The translations under genes and the position numbers were made by a program. Positions 9,788-32,141 of a stretch of DNA of 33,703 nt are shown in pieces. The notes beneath the pieces are model-generated. The model saw only the letters and a list, made by a program, of their open reading frames with translations. It did no database searches and was not told the DNA's origin. Source of the stretch: a virus. The stretch is from IMG/VR virus record IMGVR_UViG_3300037264_008085, positions 1-33,703 of that record. One strand, given 5' to 3'. The first letter of the stretch is position 1. Every line of letters starts with the position of its first letter.

Positions 9788-12700
9788 ATGCCGCTCATCC
9801 CTGTACTTGCCGAATCAAACGACAAACGCGAGCACATCCGAAAACGGGTGATCGAAGGCGTTCAGTCCGTTTTTCCGATGAAGGTGAAGGACTACACCGT
9901 AGAGGTGCAGAACGCGACGGTACACGCTGAGGATTATTCGTCTCGTGAACAGAAGGACGCAATCCTTCGTGGCAAGACACTGCAAGAAGCGCTCAAGGCT
10001 GACGTACTTCTCAAAGACGCTGATGGCAAAATCATCGAGGAAAAGAAGAACGTTACCATCGCGCAAATTCCCTATTTCACGCCTCGTCATACTTTTATCG
10101 TCGACGGTAATGAATACGTCATAGCCAACCAACGACGCGTGCGCCCCGGTGTCTACACGCGTGTACGTGGTAATGAAGAACTTGAGGCAACGTTCAACCT
10201 ATCCAAAGGTTCTAACTTTCGGTTGAACATGGACCCTGCGAAGGGGCATCTGTACATGGAATACGGAACCTCAAAAATTCCGTTGTACGCCACACTCAAA
10301 GGTCTCGGGGTTACAGATACCGAGATGAAGGCTCACTGGGGCGCTGGTGTCGTAGACCTCAACAAGGACGCCTTTGCTAAGAAGCAAGATTCATCAATCA
10401 AGAAACTGTACGAAAAACTGATTCCGTCCTATCGCCAAACCGTGACCACATCGGAAGGCATGGCACGTGCCATCTCCGAGGAGTACGAAACCAACACGTC
10501 CATGGACGCGGATGTGAATCAACGAACGCTGGGTTACGGCTACAAAAAAGTCACACCGCAAGCTCTGTTGGTTGCGTCTCAGAAGTTACTTGATGTGCAC
10601 CGTGCTGGCGTCACCACTGATGACCGCGACAGTTTGGGTTTTCAAACACTCCATGGCGTCGAAGACTTTCTGAAAGAGCGCGTTGGTTTGGAAGCACGCA
10701 ACCTACGCCGTAAGATGACTATCAAAGCCAGCGGAGGACAGAAACCTTCGCTCGACCGGATTCTTCCAGCCTCGCCATTCACTCGGTCATTGCGTGGCTT
10801 CATCACCACCGCAAATCTGTCCGCCATTCCAACGCAAATCAACCCTGTTGAAATCTTAGATACCGCGAGTCGCATCACTTCGCTCGGTGAAGGCGGTATC
10901 TCGTCTGAGCGGGCCATCCCCGGTGAAGCACGCAATCTGCACTCCACGCACTTTGGGGTCATCGATCCTGCACGTACACCCGAGTCAGGTAAGGCCGGCG
11001 TCGATTTGCGAGCCGCGTTGTGGACGCAACGTGACGAGAACGGACGGGTCTACACCAAACTTCGAAATGTTCGTACGGGGCGTGTCGAAGACGTACCTGT
11101 CGATAAATTGGAAGTCTCCACGATTGCATTTCCAGGAGAGATGCGGCGTAGCACGGGTATCGGTGTCTTGCAGAAAGGTTTCGTTACGTCCGTTAAGAAG
11201 AGTGACGTGGACTACGAGATGACGCATGCGTCGTCAATGTATGGTCCGACGACCAATCTCGTTCCCATGCCTGAAAGTCTACAAGGCAACCGTATCGTCA
11301 TGGGTTCAAAGATGCAGACACAAGCCTTGCCTCTCCTGACACGGGAAGCGCCGCTGGTACAGGTAGGGTCATTCAATCGTGGGCGCACCATGGAGGATGA
11401 GATTGCGGATCTCATCGTTCCCGTAGCGCCTGTCTCTGGCATCATCAGAAAAGTCGACAAGGACTACATCTATATTGAACCGGAGAAGACAAAACACTCC
11501 GAAGTCCAGCCGATTTATCTCCGCGAAGCCAGCTACGTGATGATGGACAAAACTGCAGCGGGCACAACGCCGCTGATCAAGGTCCACTACGACGACAACT
11601 TCCCACTGGCGTCAAAGACGTACCTTCACAACAACGTACAGGTGAAAGCAGGGGACCGTGTGACGAAGGGTCAGCAACTTGCTGATTCGAATTTCACAAT
11701 GGACGGTAAGTTGGCCCTCGGTAAAAACCTCGTCGTCGGATACATGGCGTACAAAGGATTGAACTCCAACGACGCTGTTGTGATTTCAGAGTCTGCGTCG
11801 GTGAAGTTGACCAGCGAGCATATGTACAAAGAGATGATGCTGATCGACAGCGATATGGTGCTCGATGTTCGAAAATACCGAGCACAGTTTCCGAGCACGT
11901 GGACTGCGGCGCAACTTGCCAACTTGGATGAACAAGGCGTCGCGAAGTCTGGCGTTACAGTCAACCCTGGGGACCCAATCATCATAGCGCTACGTAAAGC
12001 TACACCGACGGCTGAGATGCAGATGCTTGGTCGTCTGCACAAAACTTTGGCACACCCTTATCGGGAAGAGGTCATTACCTGGATTCACCGGTCCCCTGGT
12101 ACGGTGTTCGACGTCATCAATACCGGCAGTCGTGTCGTGGTCACCATCAAGACGCAGGAGACTGCTGGCGTCGGTGACAAAATCTCCGGACGTTACGGGA
12201 ACAAAGGCGTCATCGCTAAAGTTATTCCCGACGACCAGATGATACGAACCAAAGACGACAAACCCTTGGACATATTGATGACGTCAGCCGGGATTATCTC
12301 CCGCGTTAACCCCGCTCAAATCATCGAAACTGCAGTAAGCAAGGTAGCCTTGAAGACGGGAAAACCCGTCATAATCGATTCGTTGAGTGGACAGAACAAC
12401 GTGCAGTGGGCCAAGGACTTGCTCAAAAAGCACGGCATCTCTGATAAAGAAATCGTCCATGACCCGACGGAGAATAAGGACATCGTAGGTCCCGACGGTA
12501 AGGGCATCATGGTTGGCCCGCAATACATCCTCAAACTCTTCAAGTCCACCGAAACGAACTATGCCGCGCACGGTGTGGAAGATTACGACGTAAACCAACA
12601 GCCTGCCAAAGGTGGCGGCGAAGAGAGTGCGAAGGGTCTTGGCCGTCTTGAGATACAGACGCTCATGGCCCATAACGCACGCAACGTGCTTCAAGAGGCC

Positions 12701-14218
12701 GCAACATTGAAAGGCACGCGCAACGATGAATTCTGGCGAGCCTACCAACTCGGTCAACCGCTGCCCAAGCTCAAATCCTCTTTCGCTTACGACAAATTTC
12801 GAGGGATGCTGCAGGGTGCAGGCATCCAAGTAGATAAGAGTGGAAACAACCTGCTGCTGCGTCCTCTGACGGACAACGACATCAAGAAGATGTCAGCCGG
12901 TGCCATCAAATCTCCGACGATGGTACGAGAACGTGACTTGAAACCAGAGAAGAACGGTCTCTTCGATCCTGTCATCACCGGCGGTGCGAACGGTGATCGT
13001 TGGTCACATGTAGACTTGCGCGAACCCATCCTCAACCCCACTTTCGAAGAACCTGTTCGTCGTCTGCTGGGTCTCACACAAGCTGATCTACGCAAGCAGT
13101 TGAGCGACGAAGGTGGTTCAGGTATTCGAAGACGCCTCGATAAGCTCGACCTTGGTAAGAAGGAACGTGAGCTCAAAGAGACGGTACGCAACGCTACCGG
13201 AGCCTCGCTGGACGATGCCGTCAAGCAGATGAAGTATCTCCAAGCGCTGAAAAAGGAGAACCTTACGCCCGCTGAGGCTTACATTCTGTCCAAGCTACCG
13301 GTCATCCCGCCGGTGATGCGTCCCGTGCTGCCGTCGACAGGTAAACGAGACCTTCTGGTTTCCGATGCCAACTATCTGTACCGCGATGCAATGTTGGCGA
13401 ATGAAGTTCTCGGTGAAATGAAGAACACCAAACTTCCTGAGGAAATCGGTAGAGCTCGTCTGGGCATGTACGACGCAACCAAAGCGGTCTTCGGACTTGC
13501 AGACCCTGTCAGTCCACAACTACAAGGACGTAAAGCCAAGGGATTCATCACGACGATTTCAGGCAAAGGCAGCCCCAAGGGCGGTTTCTTTCACGGCAAA
13601 TTGTTGCGCATGCCTCAGGACCTTTCCGGCCGCGGCACCGCTGTCCCTGACCTGACGCTTGGAATGGATCAAGTTGGTCTTCCGGAAGATATGGTCTGGT
13701 CCACTTTCGGACCACACATCATTCGACGTATGGTGCAGAACGGTTACAAAGCACTCGATGCCAAACAGATGATCGAAGACAAGCACCCGGTTGCACGAGA
13801 CGCGATGATGGCTGAGACGAAGATACGTCCCGTGCTGGTCAACCGCGCACCAACACTGCATCGCCACGGCATCGTAGGAGCTTACGTAGTTCCTGTACCT
13901 GGCAAAACGATCCGGGTGAATCCCTTCATCGAAGAAGGTATGAACCTGGACTACGATGGTGACGCCCTACAAATTCACGTCCCTGTGCAGGACAAGGCCG
14001 TCAACGAAATCAAAGGTATGACGATGTCCAACATGTTGTTCGGGGATAAAACTCGGAACAATCTGCTGGTCTTTCCTCAGCACGAAGCAATCCTCGGTAT
14101 CTATGCGGCCAGCAGTGCCGCGGGTGGGAAACGCTACAAGTTCAAAACCAAACAAGAAGCGATGGCTGCTTACAACAAGGGTGATGTCGACATTGCCGAC
14201 ACTGCCCATATTGGCTGA
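9788..14218 (+). CDS. Multisubunit RNA polymerase: beta fused to N-terminal half of beta'
   Basis: Residues 1 to about 1020 align with bacterial beta: the hybrid-binding region near GNRIVMGSKMQTQALPLL, GDRVTKGQQLADSNF, LALGKNLVVGYMAYKGLNSND, GVGDKISGRYGNKGVI (about 793-808) and SRVNPAQIIET. Beta' starts near residue 1028 (DIKKMSAGAIKSP, LKPEKNGLFDP), then IPPVMRPVLP, LVNRAPTLHRHGI and NLDYDGDALQIHVP, with the Mg-binding triad at D1388, D1390 and D1392. The chain stops at 1476, just past FPQHEAILGIY. The rest of beta' is encoded at 15698. The N-terminal beta' zinc domain and most lineage-specific insertions are missing. A beta-beta' fusion is rare. Position among virion genes raises the possibility of a virion-packaged polymerase. 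Confidence 0.93.
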   Translation: MPLIPVLAESNDKREHIRKRVIEGVQSVFPMKVKDYTVEVQNATVHAEDYSSREQKDAILRGKTLQEALKADVLLKDADGKIIEEKKNVTIAQIPYFTPRHTFIVDGNEYVIANQRRVRPGVYTRVRGNEELEATFNLSKGSNFRLNMDPAKGHLYMEYGTSKIPLYATLKGLGVTDTEMKAHWGAGVVDLNKDAFAKKQDSSIKKLYEKLIPSYRQTVTTSEGMARAISEEYETNTSMDADVNQRTLGYGYKKVTPQALLVASQKLLDVHRAGVTTDDRDSLGFQTLHGVEDFLKERVGLEARNLRRKMTIKASGGQKPSLDRILPASPFTRSLRGFITTANLSAIPTQINPVEILDTASRITSLGEGGISSERAIPGEARNLHSTHFGVIDPARTPESGKAGVDLRAALWTQRDENGRVYTKLRNVRTGRVEDVPVDKLEVSTIAFPGEMRRSTGIGVLQKGFVTSVKKSDVDYEMTHASSMYGPTTNLVPMPESLQGNRIVMGSKMQTQALPLLTREAPLVQVGSFNRGRTMEDEIADLIVPVAPVSGIIRKVDKDYIYIEPEKTKHSEVQPIYLREASYVMMDKTAAGTTPLIKVHYDDNFPLASKTYLHNNVQVKAGDRVTKGQQLADSNFTMDGKLALGKNLVVGYMAYKGLNSNDAVVISESASVKLTSEHMYKEMMLIDSDMVLDVRKYRAQFPSTWTAAQLANLDEQGVAKSGVTVNPGDPIIIALRKATPTAEMQMLGRLHKTLAHPYREEVITWIHRSPGTVFDVINTGSRVVVTIKTQETAGVGDKISGRYGNKGVIAKVIPDDQMIRTKDDKPLDILMTSAGIISRVNPAQIIETAVSKVALKTGKPVIIDSLSGQNNVQWAKDLLKKHGISDKEIVHDPTENKDIVGPDGKGIMVGPQYILKLFKSTETNYAAHGVEDYDVNQQPAKGGGEESAKGLGRLEIQTLMAHNARNVLQEAATLKGTRNDEFWRAYQLGQPLPKLKSSFAYDKFRGMLQGAGIQVDKSGNNLLLRPLTDNDIKKMSAGAIKSPTMVRERDLKPEKNGLFDPVITGGANGDRWSHVDLREPILNPTFEEPVRRLLGLTQADLRKQLSDEGGSGIRRRLDKLDLGKKERELKETVRNATGASLDDAVKQMKYLQALKKENLTPAEAYILSKLPVIPPVMRPVLPSTGKRDLLVSDANYLYRDAMLANEVLGEMKNTKLPEEIGRARLGMYDATKAVFGLADPVSPQLQGRKAKGFITTISGKGSPKGGFFHGKLLRMPQDLSGRGTAVPDLTLGMDQVGLPEDMVWSTFGPHIIRRMVQNGYKALDAKQMIEDKHPVARDAMMAETKIRPVLVNRAPTLHRHGIVGAYVVPVPGKTIRVNPFIEEGMNLDYDGDALQIHVPVQDKAVNEIKGMTMSNMLFGDKTRNNLLVFPQHEAILGIYAASSAAGGKRYKFKTKQEAMAAYNKGDVDIADTAHIG

Positions 14219-14229
14219 ACCGCGTCATG

Positions 14230-14242
14230 CACTATACTAAGG
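14230..14242 (+). promoter_or_regulatory. CACTATACTAAGG motif
   Basis: TATACT (14233-14238) with TTGGCT 16 bp upstream (14211-14216) could be a weak sigma70-like promoter, and the motif matches the CTATACT core before the polymerase gene. It ends three bases before an ATG at 14245, so a transcript from it would have almost no leader. Confidence 0.4.
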
Positions 14243-14244
14243 AT

Positions 14245-14505
14245 ATGAACCCGTTCACCTTCGCCTACAAACTAGGCTCGGCCAAAGCTCTTGAGAGATT
14301 CACGTCGCAGATGGGGTCTGATTCGGACAATCCGACCGCAGAACCGCCGATGAAGATGGCCGGCCGACGTGCGGTTGACCGCATCTTGAAGGAAACGGCC
14401 GAGAAAAAAGAAAAGATCATACGACCCCGTACCATTTCTCGAACACCGGTGAAGGGCAATCCAGGTCTGAATCGACTGCGTGCGCGTCTCAAAAAACATA
14501 AATAG
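14245..14505 (+). CDS. Small basic hypothetical protein (86 aa)
   Basis: Two in-frame ATGs exist, at 14227 and 14245. I favour 14245 because it begins MNPFTFAYKLGSAKALERF, the same type of N-terminus as several neighbours, but neither start has a well-spaced ribosome binding site. The C-terminal half is strongly basic (RRAVDRILKETAEKKEKIIRP ending RLRARLKKHK). It is the first gene in the cassette between the two polymerase pieces. No family is recognised; binding to nucleic acid or to the polymerase is possible. Confidence 0.65.
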   Translation: MNPFTFAYKLGSAKALERFTSQMGSDSDNPTAEPPMKMAGRRAVDRILKETAEKKEKIIRPRTISRTPVKGNPGLNRLRARLKKHK

Positions 14506-15389: not shown

Positions 15390-15698
15390 GTGACGCAGGA
15401 CTTCTACAAAGAAGGCGTCGCGCAAGCGCTACGTGATACCGGTTTCAAGGTCGCTGAAGACCTTGAGACTGATGGTACGCCATACCCTGAAAAGAGTATG
15501 ACGATCAACGCAGAAGCGCTTGCGCGACAGCTTCGTGAGCTGTCGAAAGAAGACGAAGTACCGGGACACGTCGGAGCTGAGAACAACGTGTATACCTGGG
15601 ACCGACCAGTCACGTGGCAGGCTCCCACGAATCTTTCAGGCCTCGATACAGGCCAAAGTACCGCGGGAATGATGACACCAGGTAACCAGCGCGGGTAA
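15390..15698 (+). CDS. Hypothetical protein (102 aa)
   Basis: The GTG start follows the previous TAA directly, and the stop overlaps the next ATG as TAATG, so it is translated in a coupled chain with the polymerase C-terminal subunit. It opens with FYKEGVAQALRDTGF, the Y-x-x-G-x-x-x-A-L motif shared with neighbours. A helix follows (NAEALARQLRELSKEDE) and a Gly/Thr-rich end. No family is recognised. The tight coupling to the second polymerase piece suggests a role with it or in the same particle. Confidence 0.72.
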   Translation: MTQDFYKEGVAQALRDTGFKVAEDLETDGTPYPEKSMTINAEALARQLRELSKEDEVPGHVGAENNVYTWDRPVTWQAPTNLSGLDTGQSTAGMMTPGNQRG

Positions 15699-17485
15699 TG
15701 ACTACCACCACTACCGTCGGGCAAATGCTTCTGAACGATGCATTACCACCGACACACCAGATTCACGGTCAGACATCCAAGAAGGACCTGATGGTCCTGA
15801 TGTCGGATTTGGCTAAGACCGATCCGGCTACCTACGTTAAAACGGTGAGCAAACTCAAAGCCGTCGGTGATCGTGTCATCACCGGTTCAGGCATCACAGT
15901 AGGCCTTGACGACATTGAACCGGAATACAAAGGTCGCGATGCGATCTTGAAGCCGGCGCTTGCACGAATGCGAGAGACGAAGGACCATCAAAAACGTGTC
16001 GACATCATCGTCGAAACCCAGAAGAAGATGTTGGAGCATACGCGATCTCATCCAGGGCAGATGACAGTCATGGCCGTCAGTGGAGCCCGTGGAAAGTTGC
16101 CTCAGCTGATGCGTACAGTCGCGTCACCCATCGCAGTCGTCGACGAAAACAAAAACACAATCCCTTGGATGATTGGTCGTAGTTTTTCGGAAGGACTGAC
16201 GGGACCTGATGCGTGGGCCGAGATGACCGAAGCACGACGTAACGTCGTCGAAGGTCAAATCTCTGTTACCGAACCCGGCGCCATGTCGAAAATGTTCGTG
16301 AACACGATGAGTGATCAAATCATCACGATGCCGGATTGTGGCACAACAAACGGCATCTTGATGGACGCTTCCGACTCGCAGATCATGGACCGTTACATCG
16401 CGGGAACCAACGAGTTGGTAACACCGCGAGTAGCTATGCGACTTCGTAAGGAGGGTGGCCAGGTCAAGGTTCGTTCGCCTCTCACATGCGAAGCCTCTGA
16501 TGGTGTATGTCAGCGCTGCCAAGGTCTGAATGAGAAAGGTCAAGTTCATACAGTAGGAACCAACGTAGGAATACGGGCTGCTCAATCGTTGAGTGAACCA
16601 CTTACCCAGATGGTTCTTGGAGCCAAACACGCACTCGGTGTTGCCGAGACCAAAGGCAAAACACTTGAGGGTCTACACGGCGTAAAGCAGTTGGTTGAGG
16701 TTCCGGAAAGCTTCTTCAACAAGGCCACCCTCGCGGCAAAGCCAGGGCATGTCACCAAAATAGAAACAGCGCCTCAAGGCGGCAACTACGTCTACGTCAA
16801 CAGCAGTCAGTACTACGTCCCCCCAAATCTCAGCGTCCTCGTAAAAAAAGGGGACCAGGTAGACGCAGGAGATGTGTTGTCGGACGGCATCCCAAAGCCG
16901 GACGAACTGGTGGCGTACAAAGGCTTGGGCGTCGGCCGGAAGTACCTGACAGACGCACTTTACGGCGTATATTCTCGTAACGGGATCGACATCGATAAGC
17001 GCCATCTTGAAACTTTGGCAAAAACGGACTTGAACTACGTACGCATCATGGACAATGATAGTCCTGAGCTTGGCGTGATGCGTGGCGACATTGTCAACTA
17101 CAACAAATTCCGGCAAAGCATCGCGGACCACTCCATGACGGTGCCCACCAGCGAAGCGCTTGGACAGTACCTGGGCAACAACTTGCTACATCACACCGCT
17201 GGCACCGAGATTACTTCTGCCGTTCTGCAAGACTTCAAGAAGCAGGGAATCAAGAATATCCCGGTTGCCCCTCGCGTTCCGCAGCACGAAATGATAATGA
17301 AGCCTATCGCCCGAACGCCGTTGCTACGACCTGACTGGCTTGCACGTATGGGACACCGTCATCTGAAACAATCGCTCTTGGAAGGTGCAGCCTTTGGAGA
17401 AGCGAGCGACATCCACGGCACCCACCCCATCCCGGCCTTCACGTTTGGTGCAGAATTTGGCCAAGGTTCGCGGGGCCACTACTGA
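15698..17485 (+). CDS. Multisubunit RNA polymerase beta' subunit, C-terminal half
   Basis: The 595-residue protein carries the bridge-helix and trigger-loop part of beta': MAVSGARGKLPQLMR (bacterial MADSGARGSAAQIRQL), then GRSFSEGLTGPDAWAEMTEA, and the second zinc site, with DCGTTNG, LTCEASDGVCQRC and four conserved Cys, followed by VGIRAAQSLSEPLTQM (bacterial IGVIAAQSIGEPGTQL). The C-terminal part (YVPPNLSVLVKKGDQVDAGD, ALGQYLGNN) fits the barrel and clamp region. It should join the fused beta-beta' chain to form the active centre. In the trigger loop, the position of the bacterial catalytic His appears to be Thr. The split of beta' resembles that of cyanobacterial rpoC1/rpoC2. The start overlaps the previous stop. 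Confidence 0.92.
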   Translation: MTTTTTVGQMLLNDALPPTHQIHGQTSKKDLMVLMSDLAKTDPATYVKTVSKLKAVGDRVITGSGITVGLDDIEPEYKGRDAILKPALARMRETKDHQKRVDIIVETQKKMLEHTRSHPGQMTVMAVSGARGKLPQLMRTVASPIAVVDENKNTIPWMIGRSFSEGLTGPDAWAEMTEARRNVVEGQISVTEPGAMSKMFVNTMSDQIITMPDCGTTNGILMDASDSQIMDRYIAGTNELVTPRVAMRLRKEGGQVKVRSPLTCEASDGVCQRCQGLNEKGQVHTVGTNVGIRAAQSLSEPLTQMVLGAKHALGVAETKGKTLEGLHGVKQLVEVPESFFNKATLAAKPGHVTKIETAPQGGNYVYVNSSQYYVPPNLSVLVKKGDQVDAGDVLSDGIPKPDELVAYKGLGVGRKYLTDALYGVYSRNGIDIDKRHLETLAKTDLNYVRIMDNDSPELGVMRGDIVNYNKFRQSIADHSMTVPTSEALGQYLGNNLLHHTAGTEITSAVLQDFKKQGIKNIPVAPRVPQHEMIMKPIARTPLLRPDWLARMGHRHLKQSLLEGAAFGEASDIHGTHPIPAFTFGAEFGQGSRGHY

Positions 17486-17555: not shown

Positions 17556-18944
17556 ATGACCACACCGTCTATGTTCAAGCGCGCATACGCCCGAGGCGTT
17601 AACGATGAGCTCATCCGCCTGGGAGCGATTCGTTATCCCAGCAAAACCGCAGCCGATGAAGTTGCCGATGCAGTCGGTGACCACATGCCGGTTGAACCCG
17701 CTGCGGAAGACGTTCCAGCAGAGGTGGCGGGTGAAATCGCCGCTACCCTGGTGGATGCAGCAAACCAGCTGGTTTCCTCAGCGGGTGCATCGGCTGGAGT
17801 TCCCGAGGGGCAGGAGCTTCCTCCGGAAATGGCGCAAGGGATGGAAGAAGCTGCCAAGCAATCTGCCGCCGCGGACATCGATACCCGCGCTCACGCTGCG
17901 GCTACCGATCTGATGCAGAAAGCCGCGGAGCACACGAAGCGTGCACTGGGTTCCACCATCGAAGGTGGCGACAAGGGCAACACCATGATGGAAGCCCCTG
18001 CAGCCGAAACCAAGATGGAGAACTCCAACCGCCCCGTGAACAAGTACGTTGCGGGCGTGGGCAACACGGCGTATCCGGTCGGCAAAGGCAACGTCGGCAC
18101 CGAGCAGTCGCCAGCGCCGGAAGCTCCGGGTGAATCGCCGAGCGGCACCAACTCCGTCATCCGGCAATCGAAGATGGGCAGCGTTCTTGCGGGTGTGCTT
18201 CGCAAGTACGCCATGGGTTCCACCATCGAAGGTGGCGACAAAGGCAACACCCCGGCCGAAGCCGCGAGTGTCACCGGTGAAGCCGCTCTGGACAACACGC
18301 TGCGCCCGCAAGGCAAGTACGTTGTCGGCGTCGGCAACACCGAAATGGCTCCTGGCACCGGCGTTGTCGGTTCCGAGCAGCCGCATGAACTCGCGCCGGG
18401 TGCGTCGGCTCCCGGAAGCAATTCCGTGACTGAGTTCTCGGCTTCGAACAAGTCCGGATCGTACGACCCGTTCCTGGCGCTGTTCGAAGTCACTGCCCAG
18501 AAAGTTGCGGCGCATCTGCCCAACAATCTGTCGCAGGACGAGAAGGTCGCTCACATCCGCCAGATGATGGGCTACACGGACGAGGAAATCGTCTCGCACA
18601 TAGGCCTGCTGCACAAGCAAGCCGGTGCCACGGACGACCAAGCTGTCGCCGCTGCCACCGCGCAAGCGAAGGCAGCTTCGGCGCAGCGTCCGCGCTACGC
18701 GGGGCCGGGGTCCACTCGGACGGATCACCGATTGACCAACCAGAAAACCGCCACGGCGGAGGAAACGACCAAGTCGGAAGAGAAGCCCAACCATGGAGAC
18801 AAGGGCACCTTTCCGATGAATCTCGCCAAGAAAGACGAGAAGACCGAGACCAAGGCCGAAGAGAAGGCCGAAAAAGAAGGCTCGGCTTCCGGCAACTTGC
18901 TAGCCCGCATTCGCAGCGTGAGCCAGACTCACCTGCGCGCATAA
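17556..18944 (+). CDS. Hypothetical virion-region protein with 89-aa tandem repeat (462 aa)
   Basis: The N-terminus has FKRAYARGVNDELIRLG followed by YPSKTAADE. Residues about 50-130 are Ala/Glu-rich and helical. Two copies of an 89-residue repeat follow, each starting GSTIEGGDKGNT and containing KYV[AV]GVGNT and GSNSV/GTNSV. A helical region (about 310-360) and a charged Lys/Glu-rich, disordered tail complete it. GC content and codon use are higher than in the flanking small genes, as expected for an abundant protein. No family is recognised. Position before other structural genes suggests an internal head or core component. Confidence 0.75.
   Translation: MTTPSMFKRAYARGVNDELIRLGAIRYPSKTAADEVADAVGDHMPVEPAAEDVPAEVAGEIAATLVDAANQLVSSAGASAGVPEGQELPPEMAQGMEEAAKQSAAADIDTRAHAAATDLMQKAAEHTKRALGSTIEGGDKGNTMMEAPAAETKMENSNRPVNKYVAGVGNTAYPVGKGNVGTEQSPAPEAPGESPSGTNSVIRQSKMGSVLAGVLRKYAMGSTIEGGDKGNTPAEAASVTGEAALDNTLRPQGKYVVGVGNTEMAPGTGVVGSEQPHELAPGASAPGSNSVTEFSASNKSGSYDPFLALFEVTAQKVAAHLPNNLSQDEKVAHIRQMMGYTDEEIVSHIGLLHKQAGATDDQAVAAATAQAKAASAQRPRYAGPGSTRTDHRLTNQKTATAEETTKSEEKPNHGDKGTFPMNLAKKDEKTETKAEEKAEKEGSASGNLLARIRSVSQTHLRA
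17948..18470 (+). repeat. Tandem repeat, period 267 bp (89 aa), two copies
   Basis: A stretch starting GGGTTCCACCATCGAAGG recurs at 17948 and 18215, and the following sequence remains alignable for the whole unit at protein level. The first 30 bases are nearly identical while the rest has diverged, so the duplication is old, or only the start is under constraint. Confidence 0.85.
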
Positions 18945-19005: not shown

Positions 19006-19203
19006 ATGAAATCACTATTCCCACTCGCACTGAAGCTAGCGGCTGAGCAGATTGCTCATCAGCTACAGCAACGTGAGCCTGCGGACCAGCTTGAGCAGGT
19101 TCCGGTAGGACGATCGGCATTGCGTTTACTCGGTAAACGAACGCAGCCGACGTCAACGGAACCTGCACCCAAGTTGGTCTCCACCACCGGCACAAGGGAG
19201 TAA
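19006..19203 (+). CDS. Small hypothetical protein (65 aa)
   Basis: The ATG has GGAG about seven bases upstream, inside the hairpin just described. The stop overlaps the next start as TAATG. The N-terminal MKSLFPLALKLAAEQIAHQL is a helix with a hydrophobic face. The rest is Gln/Glu/Pro/Thr-rich and probably disordered. No family is recognised. The coupled stop and start make it likely to be a real gene that also relays translation to the metallopeptidase candidate. Confidence 0.6.
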   Translation: MKSLFPLALKLAAEQIAHQLQQREPADQLEQVPVGRSALRLLGKRTQPTSTEPAPKLVSTTGTRE

Positions 19204-19814
19204 TGTCCCTTACGTTGGCAGACCTCGCTACGCCTGAAGGTATCGCGGAAGTCGTTCGCGTTACCGGAGGTACGCGCAGCTACTACAACCATCCCGAACA
19301 GGGCGAAGCGTTGCAAGAAGTGGCGCGTAACGCCATCGTTCGAAATCCAGCGATAGGCAAGCTTCTGGTACGCGTCGTACCTAATCTTCCAAACGCGTTC
19401 TATAATTACGAGCGAGGAGAGATTATCCTGGGGATAGTCAATCCTGCTGTCCTGGCTCATGAAATCGAACACTCACGTAACATCCAACAAGAGGGGTTCT
19501 ATCGCAAAATGCTTCGAGTGGCTGAGGGCGTCACCCGCGTAAACAACCTGGCAGCGATGCCGGTGGTGATGGGCCTTCGTATCTTTCTGGACAATCCCAC
19601 TCAACGCAACGACATCTTGAAAACTCTTGCCGGCATCTCAGCCGCGGCTGCCGCACCGGGCTTGGTTGAGGAGATGGCGGCTTCGGCTGGTGCCATCAAA
19701 AACAACCCCAACAAAATGGAATTTGCTAAAACTTTGACACCTGCTTTCATGGCTCACCTGATGCACCGAATGTCACCGGTACTCACCTACCAAATGGGAC
19801 GAACAGATGTATAA
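19203..19814 (+). CDS. Probable membrane zinc metallopeptidase (HExxH gluzincin type)
   Basis: The 203-residue protein contains LAHEIEHSRN (H86, E87, H90), the zinc-binding and catalytic motif of zincins, after a short strand (GEIILGIVNPAVL). Two hydrophobic segments follow (MPVVMGLRIFL at about 119-129 and ILKTLAGISAAAAAPGL at 138-154). Next comes VEEMAAS, where E157 within E-x-x-A-S is in the position of the third zinc ligand of M48-like and YugP-like peptidases. It would act at or in a membrane, or inside the prohead. It is translationally coupled on both sides with virion-region genes. Family membership is inferred from motifs alone. Confidence 0.72.
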   Translation: MSLTLADLATPEGIAEVVRVTGGTRSYYNHPEQGEALQEVARNAIVRNPAIGKLLVRVVPNLPNAFYNYERGEIILGIVNPAVLAHEIEHSRNIQQEGFYRKMLRVAEGVTRVNNLAAMPVVMGLRIFLDNPTQRNDILKTLAGISAAAAAPGLVEEMAASAGAIKNNPNKMEFAKTLTPAFMAHLMHRMSPVLTYQMGRTDV

Positions 19815-22476
19815 GCACGCACAACCCGTATCGCCACGCACCCAAGGTTTCATGGAACAACCTGGAGGCGAAGAAGAGGAACAGCTTTTTGAACAAGGCT
19901 TTTCCCAGATGGCTCACAACGTCCTGGTGAGCAAGTTTCCCGACCTAGTCGAGAAGGTTGTTACGTTCAAAACATTGGAGACCGATCTCGATGACGGTGC
20001 TGGTGTTGGTGCGTTCGTTGTTCAACACGGCAACTCAATCATCTACGTTCCGGTGGTCATGGCTGACAACCAGCTGAAGCCACTCGACATGTTCTACAAC
20101 AAAGACCTCAACGTCTTTCTGCCGTTGTCCCAAGAGTGGCTGGAAGAAGTCGGTCAGCTGACTTTGGATGAGATGGGTGAAGCGGTGCAGACACCGAAGA
20201 CCCTTCGACGTGACGTGGACATTCGTCATCTGGTCATTCCGCCGACAACTGGTCGCTTCGCTTACGCCGCGGCTCGTGGTGATGGAACCTTCGATGTGAA
20301 TCGTGATCTGCTTGCGATGCTCAAGCACACGACGGCAAAGGCCGCGTCGGCACCGCCTGTGCTGGCAAAGTTCTTGGCCAACGCGCCAAACGAAATCAAA
20401 GAAGCGTTCAGCAACGTCGTTCGCAGTCGTGAAAAGCTTGCGACCGCGGTCTACCGTCTGTACGACTTCGATGAAATCTGCGCGTCACTGACGAAAACCG
20501 CCAGCGCACGCAACAGCAAAGGTGGGGCTCTGTGGGTCGTGGGACGCGATACCCCGCCGGAAACTTTCAAAGACATCTTCGGTGATCGTGCTCCGGAGAG
20601 TTTCCAAGGCGTCCTGCTGAAAGGCTACGGCTACAAAGATACTCGTGTTGACTTGAATCATGCGTACCAGATTCAGGAACGCCTCAAACTCACCACGCCA
20701 CAGGAGAGCGGGTTCTACAACGTATTTACCCGACAGGGAAAAGTCGAACCCGCATTCATTCTGTCCAATCCACGCGCGGTTGATGGTTACTACAGTCCGT
20801 CGCAAGCGGCGCCGGAAGGTCGTCACGGCAAGCGCCACGACACGCTTCACCACGGGGAACACAACAAAGGTTACCTCGTAATCATGAACGGTGGCCGTAG
20901 CATTTCAAAGATGTACGACGCCAGTTTGGTCGGAGAGAAACTCGATGGAGACGGCAAATCCAAAGAGTCGGAAATCTGGAACAAACTGATGAACGGCACG
21001 GCCGGTGATACCCCGAACAACGGGGATTACGGTGTCTTCATCAAGAAGACGGGAACGGGTTTTGTTGGGACCAAGCCTTTCACCATCAAGAACGTGTCGA
21101 CCGATGCCGGTGGCATCCGTCGTATCTCTTTGAACAATTTCGATGAGAATTTGCTCATCACTGATCCAGCCGCAGCAAAGGCTGGGCTTCACAGGCCCAA
21201 AGGTTCCGGCATCACGTACATCCCGACGGATGCACGATTCATCCGTTTGACACGTGATCAACAGGAATCCACGGACCTGTTCGACAATGCCACCGACGTG
21301 ACTCGTTGGTTCTACAACAAGTTCGACGCCATGGGCGCGCACAACTTCACCGTGAAGAATGCCGGCGCCGGTCAGGTTTCGATCGACGGTCGAAACAACC
21401 TGACGCCTGTGGCTGCGATGACCAAGCTCGCCTTGGATTACCACATCTCTTTCCCCGAGGCCGAAACCGCGGTCAAGAAAGCGATGGAGTCCACCAACAA
21501 CCGGATTCGAATCAACGTGCTGACTCCGGCGCAGTCGATGAAAATCGCGCAAGACCCGATGATGGGTGGAGATCCGAATGCTGGTGCTATGCCTCCTGGC
21601 GGAGACCCCGCAGCAGCGGGCATGGACCCTTCTGCGATGGGCGCTGCACCGCCACCACCGCCGTCACCACCTTCGCCGTTGGACATCGCCATCGGTGAAA
21701 AGCAAACACAGCTTCAACAGCAATCCGCTGGTTTGCAGCAACAGCAGATGTCCATCGATCAACAAGCTCAGTTGCTGTCCGAAATCGGCGCACGTGCACA
21801 AGCGATTGCCACCGGTGGCGCTGCCGCTGTTCAACAGGGCGCTCCGCCTGCGGGCATGGCTCCTCCCGGTGGTGCTCCGCCTGCGGGGATGGCACCGCCT
21901 GGTGGTGCGCAGCCTGCAGGAATGGCTAGCCCAGAAGACTCTCCGGCGGGAGATCCCACCGCAGCCATGGCTGGTGGGATGGGTGGTGCTCCGGCGGGTG
22001 GCATGGACCCGATGGCTGCGGGTGGTTCGCCACAACCGGGCGGTCCGATGGACCCCATGGCACAGCAACAGCAACAGCAACCACAAGCAGGTGGACCTGG
22101 TGCAATGATGGCGACGGAATCCCCGTCAGCGCAGGAAATTCAAAACCAAGTCAATCCTCAGTTCCTGGAACAAGCAGCAAAGCTGGATGATACCGGCGCT
22201 TTCGACGCCGCAGCCATCGCGTCCATGGCGCAATCTCCCAGCTTCCAAAACATGGTGACGGATTACGTCCCCACCCTGGAACGCGCACTCGACAACCTCG
22301 GCCGAATCTTGCTGACTATGTGGATGCAAGAATCGGAACTGAAGCAGCAGATCGGTGAAGAACAATACGTCGATATGGAAGACAACATCCGCGCCGTGTT
22401 CGAAGGTCTGGGTGACCTCATCCTGACGATGAACAAGAATGCCATCATGCTGAACGACGCCTCCACAAAACTGTAA
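19807..22476 (+). CDS. Large hypothetical virion-region protein (889 aa)
   Basis: The start overlaps the previous stop by eight bases. Residues 1 to about 580 look like a folded multidomain protein; LTKTASARN lies near residue 230 and a basic His-rich stretch (GRHGKRHDTLHHGEHNKGY) near 350. From about 590 to 780 it is low complexity: Met/Gly/Pro/Ala runs, PPPPPSPPSP, a Gln-rich coiled-coil-like part, and PPAGMAPPGGA repeats. The last 100 residues are again folded and helical (TDYVPTLERALDNLGRILLT). No family is recognised. Length, position and expected abundance fit a structural or internal head protein. Confidence 0.78.
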   Translation: MYKHAQPVSPRTQGFMEQPGGEEEEQLFEQGFSQMAHNVLVSKFPDLVEKVVTFKTLETDLDDGAGVGAFVVQHGNSIIYVPVVMADNQLKPLDMFYNKDLNVFLPLSQEWLEEVGQLTLDEMGEAVQTPKTLRRDVDIRHLVIPPTTGRFAYAAARGDGTFDVNRDLLAMLKHTTAKAASAPPVLAKFLANAPNEIKEAFSNVVRSREKLATAVYRLYDFDEICASLTKTASARNSKGGALWVVGRDTPPETFKDIFGDRAPESFQGVLLKGYGYKDTRVDLNHAYQIQERLKLTTPQESGFYNVFTRQGKVEPAFILSNPRAVDGYYSPSQAAPEGRHGKRHDTLHHGEHNKGYLVIMNGGRSISKMYDASLVGEKLDGDGKSKESEIWNKLMNGTAGDTPNNGDYGVFIKKTGTGFVGTKPFTIKNVSTDAGGIRRISLNNFDENLLITDPAAAKAGLHRPKGSGITYIPTDARFIRLTRDQQESTDLFDNATDVTRWFYNKFDAMGAHNFTVKNAGAGQVSIDGRNNLTPVAAMTKLALDYHISFPEAETAVKKAMESTNNRIRINVLTPAQSMKIAQDPMMGGDPNAGAMPPGGDPAAAGMDPSAMGAAPPPPPSPPSPLDIAIGEKQTQLQQQSAGLQQQQMSIDQQAQLLSEIGARAQAIATGGAAAVQQGAPPAGMAPPGGAPPAGMAPPGGAQPAGMASPEDSPAGDPTAAMAGGMGGAPAGGMDPMAAGGSPQPGGPMDPMAQQQQQQPQAGGPGAMMATESPSAQEIQNQVNPQFLEQAAKLDDTGAFDAAAIASMAQSPSFQNMVTDYVPTLERALDNLGRILLTMWMQESELKQQIGEEQYVDMEDNIRAVFEGLGDLILTMNKNAIMLNDASTKL
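21841..21927 (+). repeat. 33-bp tandem repeat encoding PPAGMAPPGGA
   Basis: Two full copies (21841-21873 and 21874-21906) and a diverged partial third copy lie in the low-complexity region of the 889-residue protein. The repeats are in frame, with period 11 codons. Confidence 0.8.
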
Positions 22477-23188: not shown

Positions 23189-23986
23189 ATGACTGAACAA
23201 CATCTCGACCAACTCGCCAAAGAAGCCGTCACTCGTTACACCACCGATAAGATGGCGTTGAACGATGTCGCTACGGACATCGCTACGCGCGAGAATATGG
23301 ACCCCGAGCACATCAAACGGCTGGTCGAAGCGGTCAACACCGAGGCCTTCAAGAACAAATTCGACAACCCCACAGAGGGTGCCACGGACCGGATGGTCGA
23401 ATTTGAAACTGCGAGCCCACACGCAGTCATCAGCCGCATGCTCACAGAGGCGAAAGACGCCATTGAAGCTCTACCTGGTAACGCGTCTGAGTATGACGAC
23501 GATATGACATCGTCCCTGCCCAACACCCGCGAATACAAAGCGGATGAGATGTTGCCCGATCAACCTCCGGGAAAAACATCGGAGGAACGACCTGTCAAGA
23601 AACACATCGTTGCCGGCCGCTTGCACAAAACGGCTGAAGACTTGCACAGCAAAAAGCTCGCGGAGCGCAACACCTTCACCGACGCGACCCAAGCCTTGCT
23701 CGACTGCTTTCGTCGTGCGGGCGCATCCTCTTTTGAAGAATTCGAAAAGAGCGCGTTCTATCACCTGGGTGAAGAGGTAGCGCCGTATTTACAGGTGCTA
23801 CGGCAAAGCCTTGGAAAGCCGTCAGCAGAGTACGACCACGTGGCCTCTGTGAAGATTGCTCGTGTGGTCGACATGGAAACCAAGGAGATGAAACTGCTGA
23901 AATCAGCGTTGACCTCCTACAATACCATCACCAAATACGCACAAGCCCTGCGCACCGTCGAGAAACAAATTGCCAGACTCACGTAA
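23189..23986 (+). CDS. Hypothetical helical protein (265 aa)
   Basis: It begins eight bases after the previous stop. The N-terminal 75 residues are helical, the middle (about 95-145) is acidic and disordered (SEYDDDMTSSL, DQPPGKTSEERP), then RLHKTAEDLHSKKLAERN leads to a C-terminal helical bundle. The layout of two helical parts joined at a KTA-containing linker fits a protein processed during head maturation, as inferred for several neighbours. No family is recognised. Confidence 0.75.
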   Translation: MTEQHLDQLAKEAVTRYTTDKMALNDVATDIATRENMDPEHIKRLVEAVNTEAFKNKFDNPTEGATDRMVEFETASPHAVISRMLTEAKDAIEALPGNASEYDDDMTSSLPNTREYKADEMLPDQPPGKTSEERPVKKHIVAGRLHKTAEDLHSKKLAERNTFTDATQALLDCFRRAGASSFEEFEKSAFYHLGEEVAPYLQVLRQSLGKPSAEYDHVASVKIARVVDMETKEMKLLKSALTSYNTITKYAQALRTVEKQIARLT

Positions 23987-25090: not shown

Positions 25091-25654
25091 ATGAACCACG
25101 CACTGCCCGTCTACAAAATCGCTATCAAAGGTGTGAAAACATCAGCGGTGCTGGAGAAGTACGCTGCACAGGATTCGTCTGTACTGAACTTGAAAAGCGA
25201 ACACGACTTCAATCTGTTTCAGTTACTCAAGAACGCGGGACTGCAAGAAATCGCAGGCAAGATTCCTGAAAGCGTGCGTAAAGGACTTGGCTACGGTGCA
25301 GGTGCTGCCATCCCTGCAGCCGCTGCCGGTGGTCTTCTCATCCATCAAGCTGGAAACGAAGCACGAGACACCACCGAGGACCTGCGTAACAAGGCGCTGC
25401 AGACGGCTCTCGGTGTCGGCGCTATCGGCGCAGGTCTGTACGGGCTTCACCGCGCAACGACTCCCGACCATCAGAAAGAATCCTCTGCAAACGATGAACT
25501 GCTGAGCAAACTGGCGACGGCTGGTTACCTCGACGTGATCTTTGAAGCCGAGGAAAAAGCCGCTGACGACCAGGATGTACGACGTAAACTGTCGCAGTGC
25601 CGACTATTGAATGCTGAACACGGCATCCAGCTGTTCCATGAACTACTCACCTGA
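25091..25654 (+). CDS. Hypothetical Gly/Ala-rich membrane protein (187 aa)
   Basis: It starts three bases after the previous stop, and its own stop overlaps the protease start as TGATG. Two hydrophobic Gly/Ala segments lie at about residues 66-84 (GLGYGAGAAIPAAAAGGLL) and 102-119 (ALQTALGVGAIGAGLYGL), with charged helices on either side. The pattern is like the neighbours at 23970 and 29371 and suggests membrane insertion, perhaps during DNA entry. No family is recognised. Confidence 0.72.
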   Translation: MNHALPVYKIAIKGVKTSAVLEKYAAQDSSVLNLKSEHDFNLFQLLKNAGLQEIAGKIPESVRKGLGYGAGAAIPAAAAGGLLIHQAGNEARDTTEDLRNKALQTALGVGAIGAGLYGLHRATTPDHQKESSANDELLSKLATAGYLDVIFEAEEKAADDQDVRRKLSQCRLLNAEHGIQLFHELLT

Positions 25655-28641
25655 TGTCGCGTCAAAAAATCATACAGCTCGACGAACGCGTTGCGAAGAC
25701 AGGGGAGCTATCTGTTCAACCCATCATTCTATGGGGTGCACGTAGCAAGCCCTTCTTTGAATCATTGTCCAAAGAAGCCAGTTCCAGTCCTGCGTTGGAA
25801 TACATCAAGAATGTACAACCAACACCTGGACGAACCGTTGTTCTGATCATCGGCCTTGGTAGCTACGAATATTACGGTTTGAACCGTAATGGCGACGGTT
25901 TCAACGAAGAACCGTACAAGCCTGGGTGTTCGAATGGTCCTGGCCGTGATGCCTGGATAACGGATGACGAACTCATCACGAAACATTACCAGTCGTATGA
26001 ACAAGGCCACGTCTATAAGCACCACGTCAACAAAGACCCGAAGCGTGCTATCGGCAAAGTCATCAAGGCTTTCTGGAACCCCTATATGCATCGGGTTGAG
26101 GTTCTGGAAGACCTCGACAATGCGCGGGACCCGGAGTTAGCAGAGCGCATCGCTGACGGCGAATACCCCGCAAAGAGCATGGGATGCTTCCCTGCAGGGA
26201 CCCGTATTCACACCGATGCAGGTTTCAAAAAGATCGAAGACATCCGCGTCGGCGACGTAGTGTTGAACCGCAAAGGTCAGTGGACCTGCGTGACCGAAAC
26301 ACACACTCGGCCGTACCGCGGAAAACTTTACAGCGTGCACACCACCACTGGGGATTCCTCGGCTACAAGTGAACATCCGTACGCGGTGCTGCCGTCGAAC
26401 TATGTGAACGAGGGTACCCCCAAGGGACATCTACGACGTAAAGATCCTAAACGAATCAACGTCGAGGACTCCGTCTGGACCCATGCGGAGTGTTTAGACG
26501 CGGACGACTACCTGATCACCCCGTTTGACACCACGGAAAAAACAACACTTAGCGTCCCGTTGTGTCGCCTGCTCGGTTACTACGCAGCAGAGGGTCACAT
26601 CGTTTACCAGAACGAGAAGCCTTACGGCGTCGAATTTAACCACCACAAAGAAGATGCAGCGGTCGTAGAACTCCCCATCCTATTCCAAGTGTTGTGCCCT
26701 GGAACGTCGTGGCACCAGCGTGATCGTGGGAATAGCGATAAAGCCGCGCACACCTATATCTACTCCGCTGAACTCGCACATCTTTGCATCCAACACGTAG
26801 GGCGTTACGCCGCACAGAAACATCTAAGCTTGGAGCTACTGCAGCAAGACCGTGAACGTCAACTATCCCTGCTGGGTGCTTGGATAAACGGCGACGGCGG
26901 CACGGTAAGCACCGGAGAATTCTATGTATGTTCCTGCAACGACTTGCTCATGCGCCAAGCGCAGACCATAGGTTTTCGTTGTGGCTTGTACGGCAACCAC
27001 CACGCCATCGTGCATCAACCATCCCCTCTCGTGGATCACGTAACAACGGAGTACCGGGTCAGTTTTGCCCGGCGCGGATGCAACATCATGTCTCCGTACA
27101 CCGTCAAGGTGCAGAACCGCGTGCTGAAAAGTCCGTCGACCGGCGCGTTTTTCATCGAGGGGGCGGTGGTTTCACGCATCAAAGACATCAGCGTCCTTGA
27201 TTTTGACGGCCCCGTTTACAACTTTGAAGTTGCAGATGACGAAAGTTACGTGGCGGAAAGTCACGCTGTTCACAACTGTCGAATCAAATTCGACGTTTGC
27301 ACCGTCTGCGGAAACATGGCGCCGACGCGCAAGCAATACTGCGATCATCTCAAATTCGAAATGTGTACCTTGCGTCCTGACGGCGTCAAAGTTGGAATGC
27401 TTAACCCAGCACCGAAATTCTTCGATAGTTCATGGGTCATTCGTCCGGCTGACCGTACCGGCTTCATGTTGAAGAAGGTAGCTGACGTAAACCCAACCTA
27501 CGAACTCAGTTCAGCTATCCTTGGCGACATGGTCGATGACTACAATGCCAAAGCCGCGGCAGCCAAGAAACTAGCAGTCATCGACAAAGTTGTACGTGGT
27601 TACCCCGCTGGCATAGCTCAGTCTGATTTACCCAACGCCAAGCTCATCGAGCAGTACACCAAGGGTGCTCTGCCGGATGTTGTTCAAAACACTCCGAAGC
27701 TGTCACACGAAAATCTGAAGACGCTCGCACCATACAACCTCGGAACCACCCTCGCTGAATTGTCGCGCAACGGAATCCTGCTCACTACACCGGAATTCGT
27801 GAGCTTGTTCATCGAAAAAGCGATGCCAGGTGTAAAGATACCTGCACATGTACTCGATAACCTCGTCGCCACACAAGCAGAACTCTTTGAACTGTACAGT
27901 CAACATCCCTCGTTGATGGATGAGTGTGCCGACGTATTACAACCGACAGAGGTAGCACCATCTACGTTGAAGACTGCTGTGGCTGCTTTGCGTGAAAAGC
28001 GATCAACAGTTTCTGATTACCTCTATCGCCGGTATACACCGCACATCACCGATCTACAAGAACCGCCGGAATCAGAACTCCTCGAAGTAGTAGACCCTAC
28101 GTCAGGACGTACATACCAGACGACCCACGGTGCGGCGCTAGCTGCCCATGACGCTATCGCTGAATCCCAAATCAAACGGATGGTGGGTGGCGCAGCTCTA
28201 CTTGGCGGCACCTACAAGATGATGAGCATGAACCCTCATCTCCGACCCTTTCGACTTCCCATCGCAGCTGGTCTAGGGTATGCAGGGTCTAAAGCTATTC
28301 CTCAAGATATGGGGCCTACCTACGAAACTACGTCAGGTGAACACATCCCCAGCATCAGTGAGTTCGTAGAAAAACAGAACGCGGACTGGAACACCATCAA
28401 CACCCTGGGCCAGGATTACGAAATCACGAAACAGGGCTCAGCTACGTTGACGCGTGTAATGTGCCGTAACGCTTACCTGACCCCTGAGCTACGGAGCGTA
28501 TTCCTGAAAGCCAGCAGCTTCGGATTACGTGGTAACGCCCCCCGGTTGTTCGACCGTTGCAAGCTGGGGGAAGACGGTATTGTCGATGAACGTTTGGACT
28601 TTGAGAAGGTTTCTACTGTCATCGGAAACCTAATCTGGTAG
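25654..28641 (+). CDS. Prohead (capsid maturation) protease precursor interrupted by an intein
   Basis: The 995-residue precursor contains an intein (residues 178-541), leaving a 631-residue mature protein. The N-extein has KHHVNKDPKRAIGKV and, after splicing, EYPAKSMGCRIKFDV. These match the H-x(n)-P-I-G-x-[VI] and S-[IM]-G-[FC] motifs of S78-type prohead proteases, with His near residue 130 and S175 as likely catalytic residues. CTVCGN and YCDHL after the junction form a possible zinc site. The long C-terminal part holds LKTAVAALRE, a Gly-rich hydrophobic stretch and a helical end, and may be a self-cleaved scaffold or another domain. Location just ahead of the capsid genes supports the call; the family is usually much shorter, about 200 residues. 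Confidence 0.78.
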   Translation: MSRQKIIQLDERVAKTGELSVQPIILWGARSKPFFESLSKEASSSPALEYIKNVQPTPGRTVVLIIGLGSYEYYGLNRNGDGFNEEPYKPGCSNGPGRDAWITDDELITKHYQSYEQGHVYKHHVNKDPKRAIGKVIKAFWNPYMHRVEVLEDLDNARDPELAERIADGEYPAKSMGCFPAGTRIHTDAGFKKIEDIRVGDVVLNRKGQWTCVTETHTRPYRGKLYSVHTTTGDSSATSEHPYAVLPSNYVNEGTPKGHLRRKDPKRINVEDSVWTHAECLDADDYLITPFDTTEKTTLSVPLCRLLGYYAAEGHIVYQNEKPYGVEFNHHKEDAAVVELPILFQVLCPGTSWHQRDRGNSDKAAHTYIYSAELAHLCIQHVGRYAAQKHLSLELLQQDRERQLSLLGAWINGDGGTVSTGEFYVCSCNDLLMRQAQTIGFRCGLYGNHHAIVHQPSPLVDHVTTEYRVSFARRGCNIMSPYTVKVQNRVLKSPSTGAFFIEGAVVSRIKDISVLDFDGPVYNFEVADDESYVAESHAVHNCRIKFDVCTVCGNMAPTRKQYCDHLKFEMCTLRPDGVKVGMLNPAPKFFDSSWVIRPADRTGFMLKKVADVNPTYELSSAILGDMVDDYNAKAAAAKKLAVIDKVVRGYPAGIAQSDLPNAKLIEQYTKGALPDVVQNTPKLSHENLKTLAPYNLGTTLAELSRNGILLTTPEFVSLFIEKAMPGVKIPAHVLDNLVATQAELFELYSQHPSLMDECADVLQPTEVAPSTLKTAVAALREKRSTVSDYLYRRYTPHITDLQEPPESELLEVVDPTSGRTYQTTHGAALAAHDAIAESQIKRMVGGAALLGGTYKMMSMNPHLRPFRLPIAAGLGYAGSKAIPQDMGPTYETTSGEHIPSISEFVEKQNADWNTINTLGQDYEITKQGSATLTRVMCRNAYLTPELRSVFLKASSFGLRGNAPRLFDRCKLGEDGIVDERLDFEKVSTVIGNLIW
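26185..27276 (+). mobile_element. Intein with LAGLIDADG homing endonuclease domain (364 aa)
   Basis: It starts with Cys (CFPAGTRIHTDAGFKKIEDI, block A), then TSEHPY (block B, TxxH), two dodecapeptide motifs LLGYYAAEGHI and LLGAWINGDGG (endonuclease blocks), VYNFEVADDESYVAE (block F) and HAVHN followed by Cys+1 (block G). All residues for class 1 protein splicing are present. The endonuclease motifs keep an acidic residue each (E and D), so it may be active. The element inserts between SMG and CRI at the presumed protease active site. Confidence 0.93.
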
Positions 28642-31223: not shown

Positions 31224-32141
31224 ATGCCTGCATACCAAACCGAAACAAAAGAAGTTTCGGCTCAGCTCATCAACTCCAACTTCGTGCGGAAGCTGGAGTC
31301 GGGGCGCATCAAGGAGGCTCAGGACGAAGGTTCGGCGTTCATTCGCCAGAAAGTTCGTCAGGAGTCCTTTGCACGCGAAATCATCAACCCAATTCTGTTG
31401 GCTGATGATGAGCTGGACCGCGACGAAAACACCGACCAGCCCAAGAAGATTGTGGAGAAGGAGCCCGACTCTGTCGCGACCTTCGTCACTTTCCAAGGTG
31501 CTGGCCCACGTACGTGGTTCAGAGGCCCCAGGTTCGCGGTGAAGTTTGGGAAGACCGAATCCCAACGCTTCAACAAGAACAAGTGGGAGTTGATGACCTA
31601 CCAGAATGACATTCGGAAAATCTTGTCGGACAACTCCGTGAAGGATATGGCCGACCAAGAGGACCGAAAGTATCTGGAGACCATCGACGCCATTGCTGCC
31701 GCCAACGCAGGCGTGCAGATTACGGCAGCAGCGGGGTTCAATTCCGCGGCCTTCCGTAAGGGCTTCCAGACGATGGTCAACCGTCGTCAGCCCATCGGCA
31801 AGATCCTCATGACCAAAGAGCTTTACTACGAAGCTCTTGACCTACCGGCCACCTCGATCGGTGATGACGTTGCCAGCCGTCACTACGACGCTGGTATTGA
31901 GGAAGAGGAAAAGCTCTGGGGCATCCCCGTGGTTTCGACCATGAAGAGCGACATCCTCAACCCCAAGAAGGCGTACATCATCGCACCGGAGAATTTCCAC
32001 GGTGTCTTCTTCTTGCTGCAGGATGCAACTCTGTTCATCAAGCAGGAAGCCGACAATATCGAGTTCTGGAGCTACGCGGCTCCCGGAATCGGTATCGGAA
32101 ATTCCATCTCGTTCCAGGTGTTGTCCTTCCCCGGTGCCTAA
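31224..32141 (+). CDS. Major capsid protein (HK97-fold type)
   Basis: The 305-residue protein has an N-terminal charged arm (about 1-85), then a region of strands and a long helix (TYQNDIRKILSDNSVKDMADQEDRKYLETID, about 133-165). The second half has the typical capsid A/P-domain pattern: QPIGKILMTKELYYEAL, LWGIPVVSTMKSDIL, KKAYIIAPENFHGVFFLL, then strands ending GIGIGNSISFQVLSF. GGAGG is well placed before the ATG. It follows the protease and decoration genes, as in many phages. There is no long N-terminal scaffolding domain, so a separate scaffold is expected among the upstream genes. Confidence 0.8.
   Translation: MPAYQTETKEVSAQLINSNFVRKLESGRIKEAQDEGSAFIRQKVRQESFAREIINPILLADDELDRDENTDQPKKIVEKEPDSVATFVTFQGAGPRTWFRGPRFAVKFGKTESQRFNKNKWELMTYQNDIRKILSDNSVKDMADQEDRKYLETIDAIAAANAGVQITAAAGFNSAAFRKGFQTMVNRRQPIGKILMTKELYYEALDLPATSIGDDVASRHYDAGIEEEEKLWGIPVVSTMKSDILNPKKAYIIAPENFHGVFFLLQDATLFIKQEADNIEFWSYAAPGIGIGNSISFQVLSFPGA

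Follow-up and report, generated by a model that had tools for sequence, protein, structure and literature searches.

In the polyvalent proteins of phages and plasmids, which act early, zincins have been described as the most frequent domain, and they are said to be always fused to the virion RNA polymerases (RNAPs) of N4-like phages, for which self-processing or the cutting of host proteins has been proposed (PMC5512222). The RNAP-bearing tape-measure protein of P23-45 combines a metallopeptidase with membrane domains (PMC10770324), and the group 1 jumbo phages of the phiKZ type conserve an uncharacterised zincin with a proposed role in maturation or virion proteolysis (PMC7824862). Here we examined a 33.7-kb virus record from IMG/VR (33,703 nucleotides, hereafter the window), which encodes a putative zinc peptidase among its virion genes. 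The locus resembles the polyvalent-protein zincins (MPTase-PolyVal, ArdC, and the C-terminal domain of the N4 virion RNAP) in that a putative zincin lies near an RNAP in a virion or early-effector context, and ArdC is a weak structural match (see below). It differs from them in that the window protein stands alone, has its kinship with YugP, and gave no match to MPTase-PolyVal (PF18818) by hmmscan, with none above cut-off in the related phage genomes. With the phiKZ-type zincin it shares an occurrence in multisubunit-RNAP phages and a suggested link to virion proteolysis (PMC7824862); however, phiKZ gave no match to the 31-sequence peptidase profile. Arash and N4 likewise gave no match to the peptidase profiles, and P23-45 gave a single match of 26 residues. 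A minus-strand match in D69 (E-value 0.007) was rejected as a homologue as it is without HExxH.

The first-pass annotation of this DNA had placed the peptidase candidate beside prohead genes, and this was borne out, as the gene was found to reside in a virion module that includes a prohead protease and RNAP genes and is syntenic with Salmonella phage Arash (Table 1). The identities to Arash were 31% for the portal, 35% for the fused RNAP β-β′N, 31% for β′C, 35% over 126 aa for gp218, 35 to 42% for the prohead protease gp222, and 40% for the major capsid protein, with gp219 also matched. The multisubunit RNAP is encoded as a β-β′N fusion with β′C about 1.5 kb downstream, an arrangement that is the same in Arash (gp206/gp216) and D69. 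Between β′C and the gp218 homologue, Arash encodes an SNF2-type helicase, whereas the window encodes the 462-aa protein and the peptidase. Two further features of the module were observed: (i) the intein of the prohead-protease-like gene is in-frame and directly follows a conserved S-M-G (SMG/CFPAGT ... VHN/C), with Arash gp222, itself without intein, aligning on either side of it; and (ii) the 462-aa protein carries a direct repeat of roughly 75 to 90 aa, starting GSTIEGGDKGNT, at residues 132 and 221.

Table 1. Coordinates of the putative peptidase, its predicted elements, and context genes in the window
Feature	Coordinates	Strand	Remarks
RNAP β fused to N-terminal part of β′	9788..14218	+	NLDYDGD motif
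RNAP β′ C-terminal part, separate gene	15698..17485	+	Context gene
462-aa protein with internal repeat	17556..18944	+	Upstream neighbour, retained in orthologous loci
Putative YugP-like zincin CDS	19203..19814	+	ATG start, 203 aa
HEIEH	19458..19472	+	H86 and H90, predicted zinc ligands; E87, predicted general base; active-site helix 81-94
Long helix 99-128	19497..19586	+	Equivalent of first YugP membrane segment; weakly hydrophobic
Helix 132-166	19596..19700	+	Equivalent of second YugP membrane segment plus glutamate helix
E156-E157, then M-A-A-S	19668..19673	+	E157, predicted third zinc ligand; aligns with Glu of YugP E-F-N/D-A-S
H185	19755..19757	+	Invariant His in 13 orthologues; candidate transition-state residue
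889-aa homologue of Arash gp218 ("structural protein")	19807..22476	+	Downstream neighbour of orthologues
Prohead-protease-like gene, Arash gp222 homologue	25654..28641	+	Intein, residues 178-541
Major capsid protein	31224..32141	+	40% identical to Arash gp226

The ATG of the peptidase ORF shares bases with the TAA stop codon of a 65-aa ORF located upstream (TAATG) and its 3′ end contains the start of the downstream gene; as it overlaps both neighbours, the ORF appears to be translated within a tight gene string. Among the 30 gene models of the window that were checked, HExxH was present in the peptidase ORF only, and within its L-V-E-E-M-A-A-S stretch, which ends at S161, the E-x-x-A-S motif begins at E157. 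When IMG/VR was scanned, first with the protein and in later rounds with alignments of increasing size, 12 further distinct orthologues of 27 to 56% identity were identified (13 with the window protein). H86, E87, H90, E156, E157, and H185 were unchanged in all 13, while the HExxH motif occurred as HEIEH, HELGH, HELNH, HELEH, and HETAH. Since the middle residues of the motif vary (IE, LG, LN, LE, and TA), it is the catalytic positions that form its conserved part. Retention of the motif together with E156, E157, and H185 in every orthologue, combined with its presence as the sole HExxH of the gene models, argues that HEIEH is beyond chance. The dN/dS ratios, calculated according to Nei-Gojobori and given for pairs with computable dS, were 0.062 (L019/L023), 0.171 (L085/L086), and 0.150 (window/L017), and point to strong purifying selection. 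All orthologues directly precede the same structural gene (about 690 to 945 aa) and, wherever the contig extends, are downstream of the β′ C-terminal gene and a 370- to 460-aa neighbour. No orthologue was found in the bacterial genome contigs scanned, and tblastn against isolated phages gave no match when the window protein, an orthologue, and three of the divergent copies served as queries. The candidate with HEIEH and E-x-x-A-S is real and very probably an active metallopeptidase.

Single-sequence scans of the window protein against Pfam, PHROGs, and NCBIfam returned no significant match; however, PF04298 (Zn_peptidase_2, YugP) was found to recur below threshold among its relatives. Relative to the curated cut-off of 27 bits, for which the window protein gave no match and under which all relatives scored, the best orthologue (L008) reached 19.5 bits (E-value 7.9e-4) and the best divergent phage copy (L087) 24.8 bits (E-value 1.8e-5), followed by L088 (19.1 bits, E-value 9.9e-4), L054 (15.8 bits), L090 (13.1 bits), and L062 (12.4 bits). 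YugP relatives were fetched from bacterial genomes with a query taken to be B. subtilis YugP, which matched a Bacillus genome at 99% identity, and profiles were compared by hhalign. Against 28 YugPs the orthologues aligned over residues 38 to 203 at a probability of 93.0% (score 52.7), the divergent phage copies at 97.3%, and all phage copies at 97.4%. Against M48 the probability was 79 to 80% and the alignments were local for orthologues and divergent copies alike, with that of the orthologue profile limited to residues 30 to 105; two column-shuffled controls yielded 0.1 to 0.2% against YugP and 0.1 to 1.0% against M48. The kinship to YugP that had been proposed for checking by HMM-HMM comparison was thus recovered, both in this comparison and in the recurrent PF04298 matches. 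A profile search of the PDB gave only matches local to HExxH, to metzincins and others.

The residues expected of a gluzincin were examined in an unguided, independent MAFFT alignment of 31 sequences (13 orthologues, 15 YugPs, and three divergent phage copies). Only H86, E87, H90, and E157 were invariant in all 31, and E157 was placed on the YugP glutamate; E156, invariant in the 13 orthologues, was not shared outside them, so that E157 is the predicted ligand, in agreement with the position assigned to it by the first-pass annotation. HExxH with a glutamate as third ligand on a following helix fits the gluzincin layout in all 31 sequences and in the helices of the predicted structure. Position 185 was His in all 13 orthologues and Tyr in the 15 YugPs and three aligned divergent copies. 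In gluzincins of the thermolysin type, stabilisation of the transition state is commonly due to a Tyr or His located past the glutamate helix, and we infer that H185 may serve this function. The protein shares with YugP the order of elements, HExGH(A), the Glu of E-x-x-A-S, and a next helix with a conserved Tyr/His, and the HMM-HMM alignment runs the full length with the catalytic residues in register. In contrast to YugP, it has no N-terminal membrane anchor, its helices are weakly hydrophobic, it has His for Tyr, and its identity is 13 to 19%. As it falls short of YugP in the PF04298 score, the membrane helices, and the Tyr, the peptidase is YugP-like and not a YugP. With M48 (HtpX/Ste24) it has in common the gluzincin scheme of HExxH and a distal Glu, but it carries E-x-x-A-S where M48 has E-x-x-A-D and shows no full-length homology.

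Structure prediction by AlphaFold2 was poor with 6 sequences (pLDDT 48) and reached a pLDDT of 92.5 and a pTM of 0.86 with the 31-sequence alignment. The latter model has strands at residues 55-58, 65-68, and 73-76 and a helix at 171-189 in addition to the helices of Table 1, and its predicted order of helix, three strands, active-site helix, and glutamate helix is that of zincins. This confident model, together with the invariance of H86, H90, and E157 across the 31 sequences and their register with YugP, makes a wide separation of the three residues unlikely. The zincin metallopeptidase ArdC was matched at Z 5.3 over 114 to 117 residues, amid unrelated helical matches of equal Z. A Foldseek search of the PDB returned unrelated helical matches, with no YugP or M48 chain among them, and shows nothing either way. 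In BFVD, a protein from an uncultured phage was matched weakly (E-value 0.017), and virion RNAP and minor-capsid proteins ranked lower; these matches were too weak to be of use.

The distribution of the gene was mapped on a maximum-likelihood tree of β′C, which was detected at about 60 IMG/VR loci, many on contigs that are fragments. The peptidase was present in all members of the 8-row clade of the window that have the slot on the contig, as well as in L045 and L085/L086. The slot was without the peptidase in L050, the sister clade of 21 rows, and the clade of Arash and D69; this absence refers to the slot, and many of the contigs are fragments. The presence label required 4 changes on the tree compared with a shuffled mean of 9.4, and one gain with a few losses is a possible history. 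As the orthologue is missing from the sister clade, Arash, and D69, the lineage, taken overall, appears able to do without the gene. A muramidase considered as the occupant of the slot in some relatives was dropped, Pfam having given no match. Remote copies of the domain were also detected outside the slot in related phages, all with HE[LVI]GH and E-x-x-A-S/N: (i) one each in L057, L054, and L062, the last forming the YugP-like HELGHA domain of a 638-aa protein (L062:5367-7280) that also has glycine-zipper stretches and, at its C-terminus, a J-domain-like segment; (ii) two extra genes in G001, one of them immediately behind the gene for a glycine-zipper-rich protein of 1493 aa; and (iii) one in G009, within a 734-aa protein with DUF5661. 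A phage record that holds one YugP-like copy (L211) also encodes a different small HELKH protein (L211:3923-4456) with strongly hydrophobic segments and E-R-E-A-Y-L-E-S, for which Pfam gave no match.

The first-pass annotation had described the protein as a membrane peptidase, reading HEIEH, two hydrophobic segments, and E-x-x-A-S as the layout of membrane gluzincins. The motifs, the helices, and the gluzincin layout stood, but the helices proved only mildly hydrophobic. Based on the best 19-residue Kyte-Doolittle mean per segment, the two helical segments of the window protein scored 1.07 and 1.27, and the orthologues about 0.7 to 1.7 (0.94 to 1.07 in the most distant), compared with mostly 1.7 to 2.6 per span (lowest 1.41) in the bacterial YugP relatives. 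An N-terminal hydrophobic segment was looked for in the peptidase and none was found. With values well under those of YugP and Arg126, inside the first segment, retained in 11 of the 13 orthologues, the membrane label is not supported, and the peptidase probably occurs in soluble form or is attached to membranes peripherally at most. An enzyme that, in the manner of YugP or HtpX, is embedded in the inner membrane of the host, cuts membrane proteins, and aids entry of the DNA or RNAP would account for the positional equivalence of the helices to the YugP spans, for an Ala/Gly-rich helix, and for the amphipathic nature of helix 99-128; given the low hydrophobicity and the conserved Arg, we regard it as improbable.

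Our favored explanation, which we consider to have about an even chance of being correct, is an active stand-alone zincin that is carried as virion cargo and acts during infection. In a YugP-like gluzincin arrangement, H86, H90, and E157 would hold the zinc, E87 would activate the water, and H185 would take the place of the YugP Tyr in stabilising the transition state; this zinc binding and catalysis appear highly likely. The peptidase would be co-translated with the virion genes, packaged, and, after delivery with the phage multisubunit RNAP, would cut proteins of the host, or phage proteins delivered along with it, as infection begins, a part of the proposal that is argued from context and precedent and for which the chances are near, or just short of, even. 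A stand-alone zincin that is patchily retained next to genes for RNAP and structural proteins agrees best with delivered cargo and second best with maturation. The placement of divergent copies behind the very large glycine-zipper-rich protein of G001 and within the multi-domain protein of L062 also speaks for the favored explanation. In the maturation alternative, the enzyme would trim internal virion proteins, such as the neighbouring 462-aa protein with its repeat or the structural protein of 889 aa, in the prohead or infected cell beside the gp21-like prohead protease. The tight translational coupling to the structural gene and the constant position in the morphogenesis module are in keeping with such trimming, as is the cleavage suggested for the phiKZ-type group 1 zincin (PMC7824862). 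However, a prohead protease is already present in the module, homology to a phiKZ gene was not found at the sensitivity used, and sister phages with the same structural proteins are without the gene, which would be odd for an essential enzyme; we therefore hold this main competitor to be rather unlikely. Filling of the slot by different proteins in other phages would suit a catalytically dead zincin that is retained for its fold, in a structural or adaptor role, but all catalytic positions are invariant at 27 to 56% identity and purifying selection appears strong, making loss of activity very improbable. Less probable still is a hydrolase of peptidoglycan peptides for entry or lysis. The first-pass annotation raised peptidoglycan-linked peptides as a target, and the position in the virion module would suit it, yet no result points there, and at the sensitivity of Pfam the protein showed no kinship with M15, M23, or other wall peptidases. 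YugP is not known as a wall enzyme.

Delivery as cargo may be part of a wider pattern in which RNAP-delivering phages repeatedly pair their RNAP with a zinc protease; here a membrane YugP would have been recruited, lost its hydrophobicity, exchanged Tyr for His, and become a free effector that is packaged and injected. As a whole, this scenario is speculative and unlikely. The present findings would add to the multisubunit-RNAP phages a previously unnamed zincin family that lies beyond the cut-offs of Pfam, PHROGs, and NCBIfam. The question of why a metallopeptidase so frequently accompanies virion RNAPs (N4, P23-45, and phiKZ-type) becomes testable, and with the peptidase on a separate gene, deletion or mutation is possible without touching the polymerase. 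A soluble-looking YugP-type enzyme would also be convenient for the structural and biochemical study of a poorly studied membrane family.

Other proteins of the virion module were found to share sequence features. An N-terminal motif, [YF]xxGxxx[AE]L, occurs in the otherwise unrelated products of 14227-14505, 15390-15698, and 17556-18944, that is, in 3 of the 30 gene models compared with a shuffle mean of 0.05, and many small proteins in related loci such as L034, L041, and L210 carry it as well; it is perhaps a capsid-targeting signal. In addition, the small proteins encoded at 23970-24857, 25091-25654, and 29371-29895 are glycine-zipper-like and possibly membrane-active.
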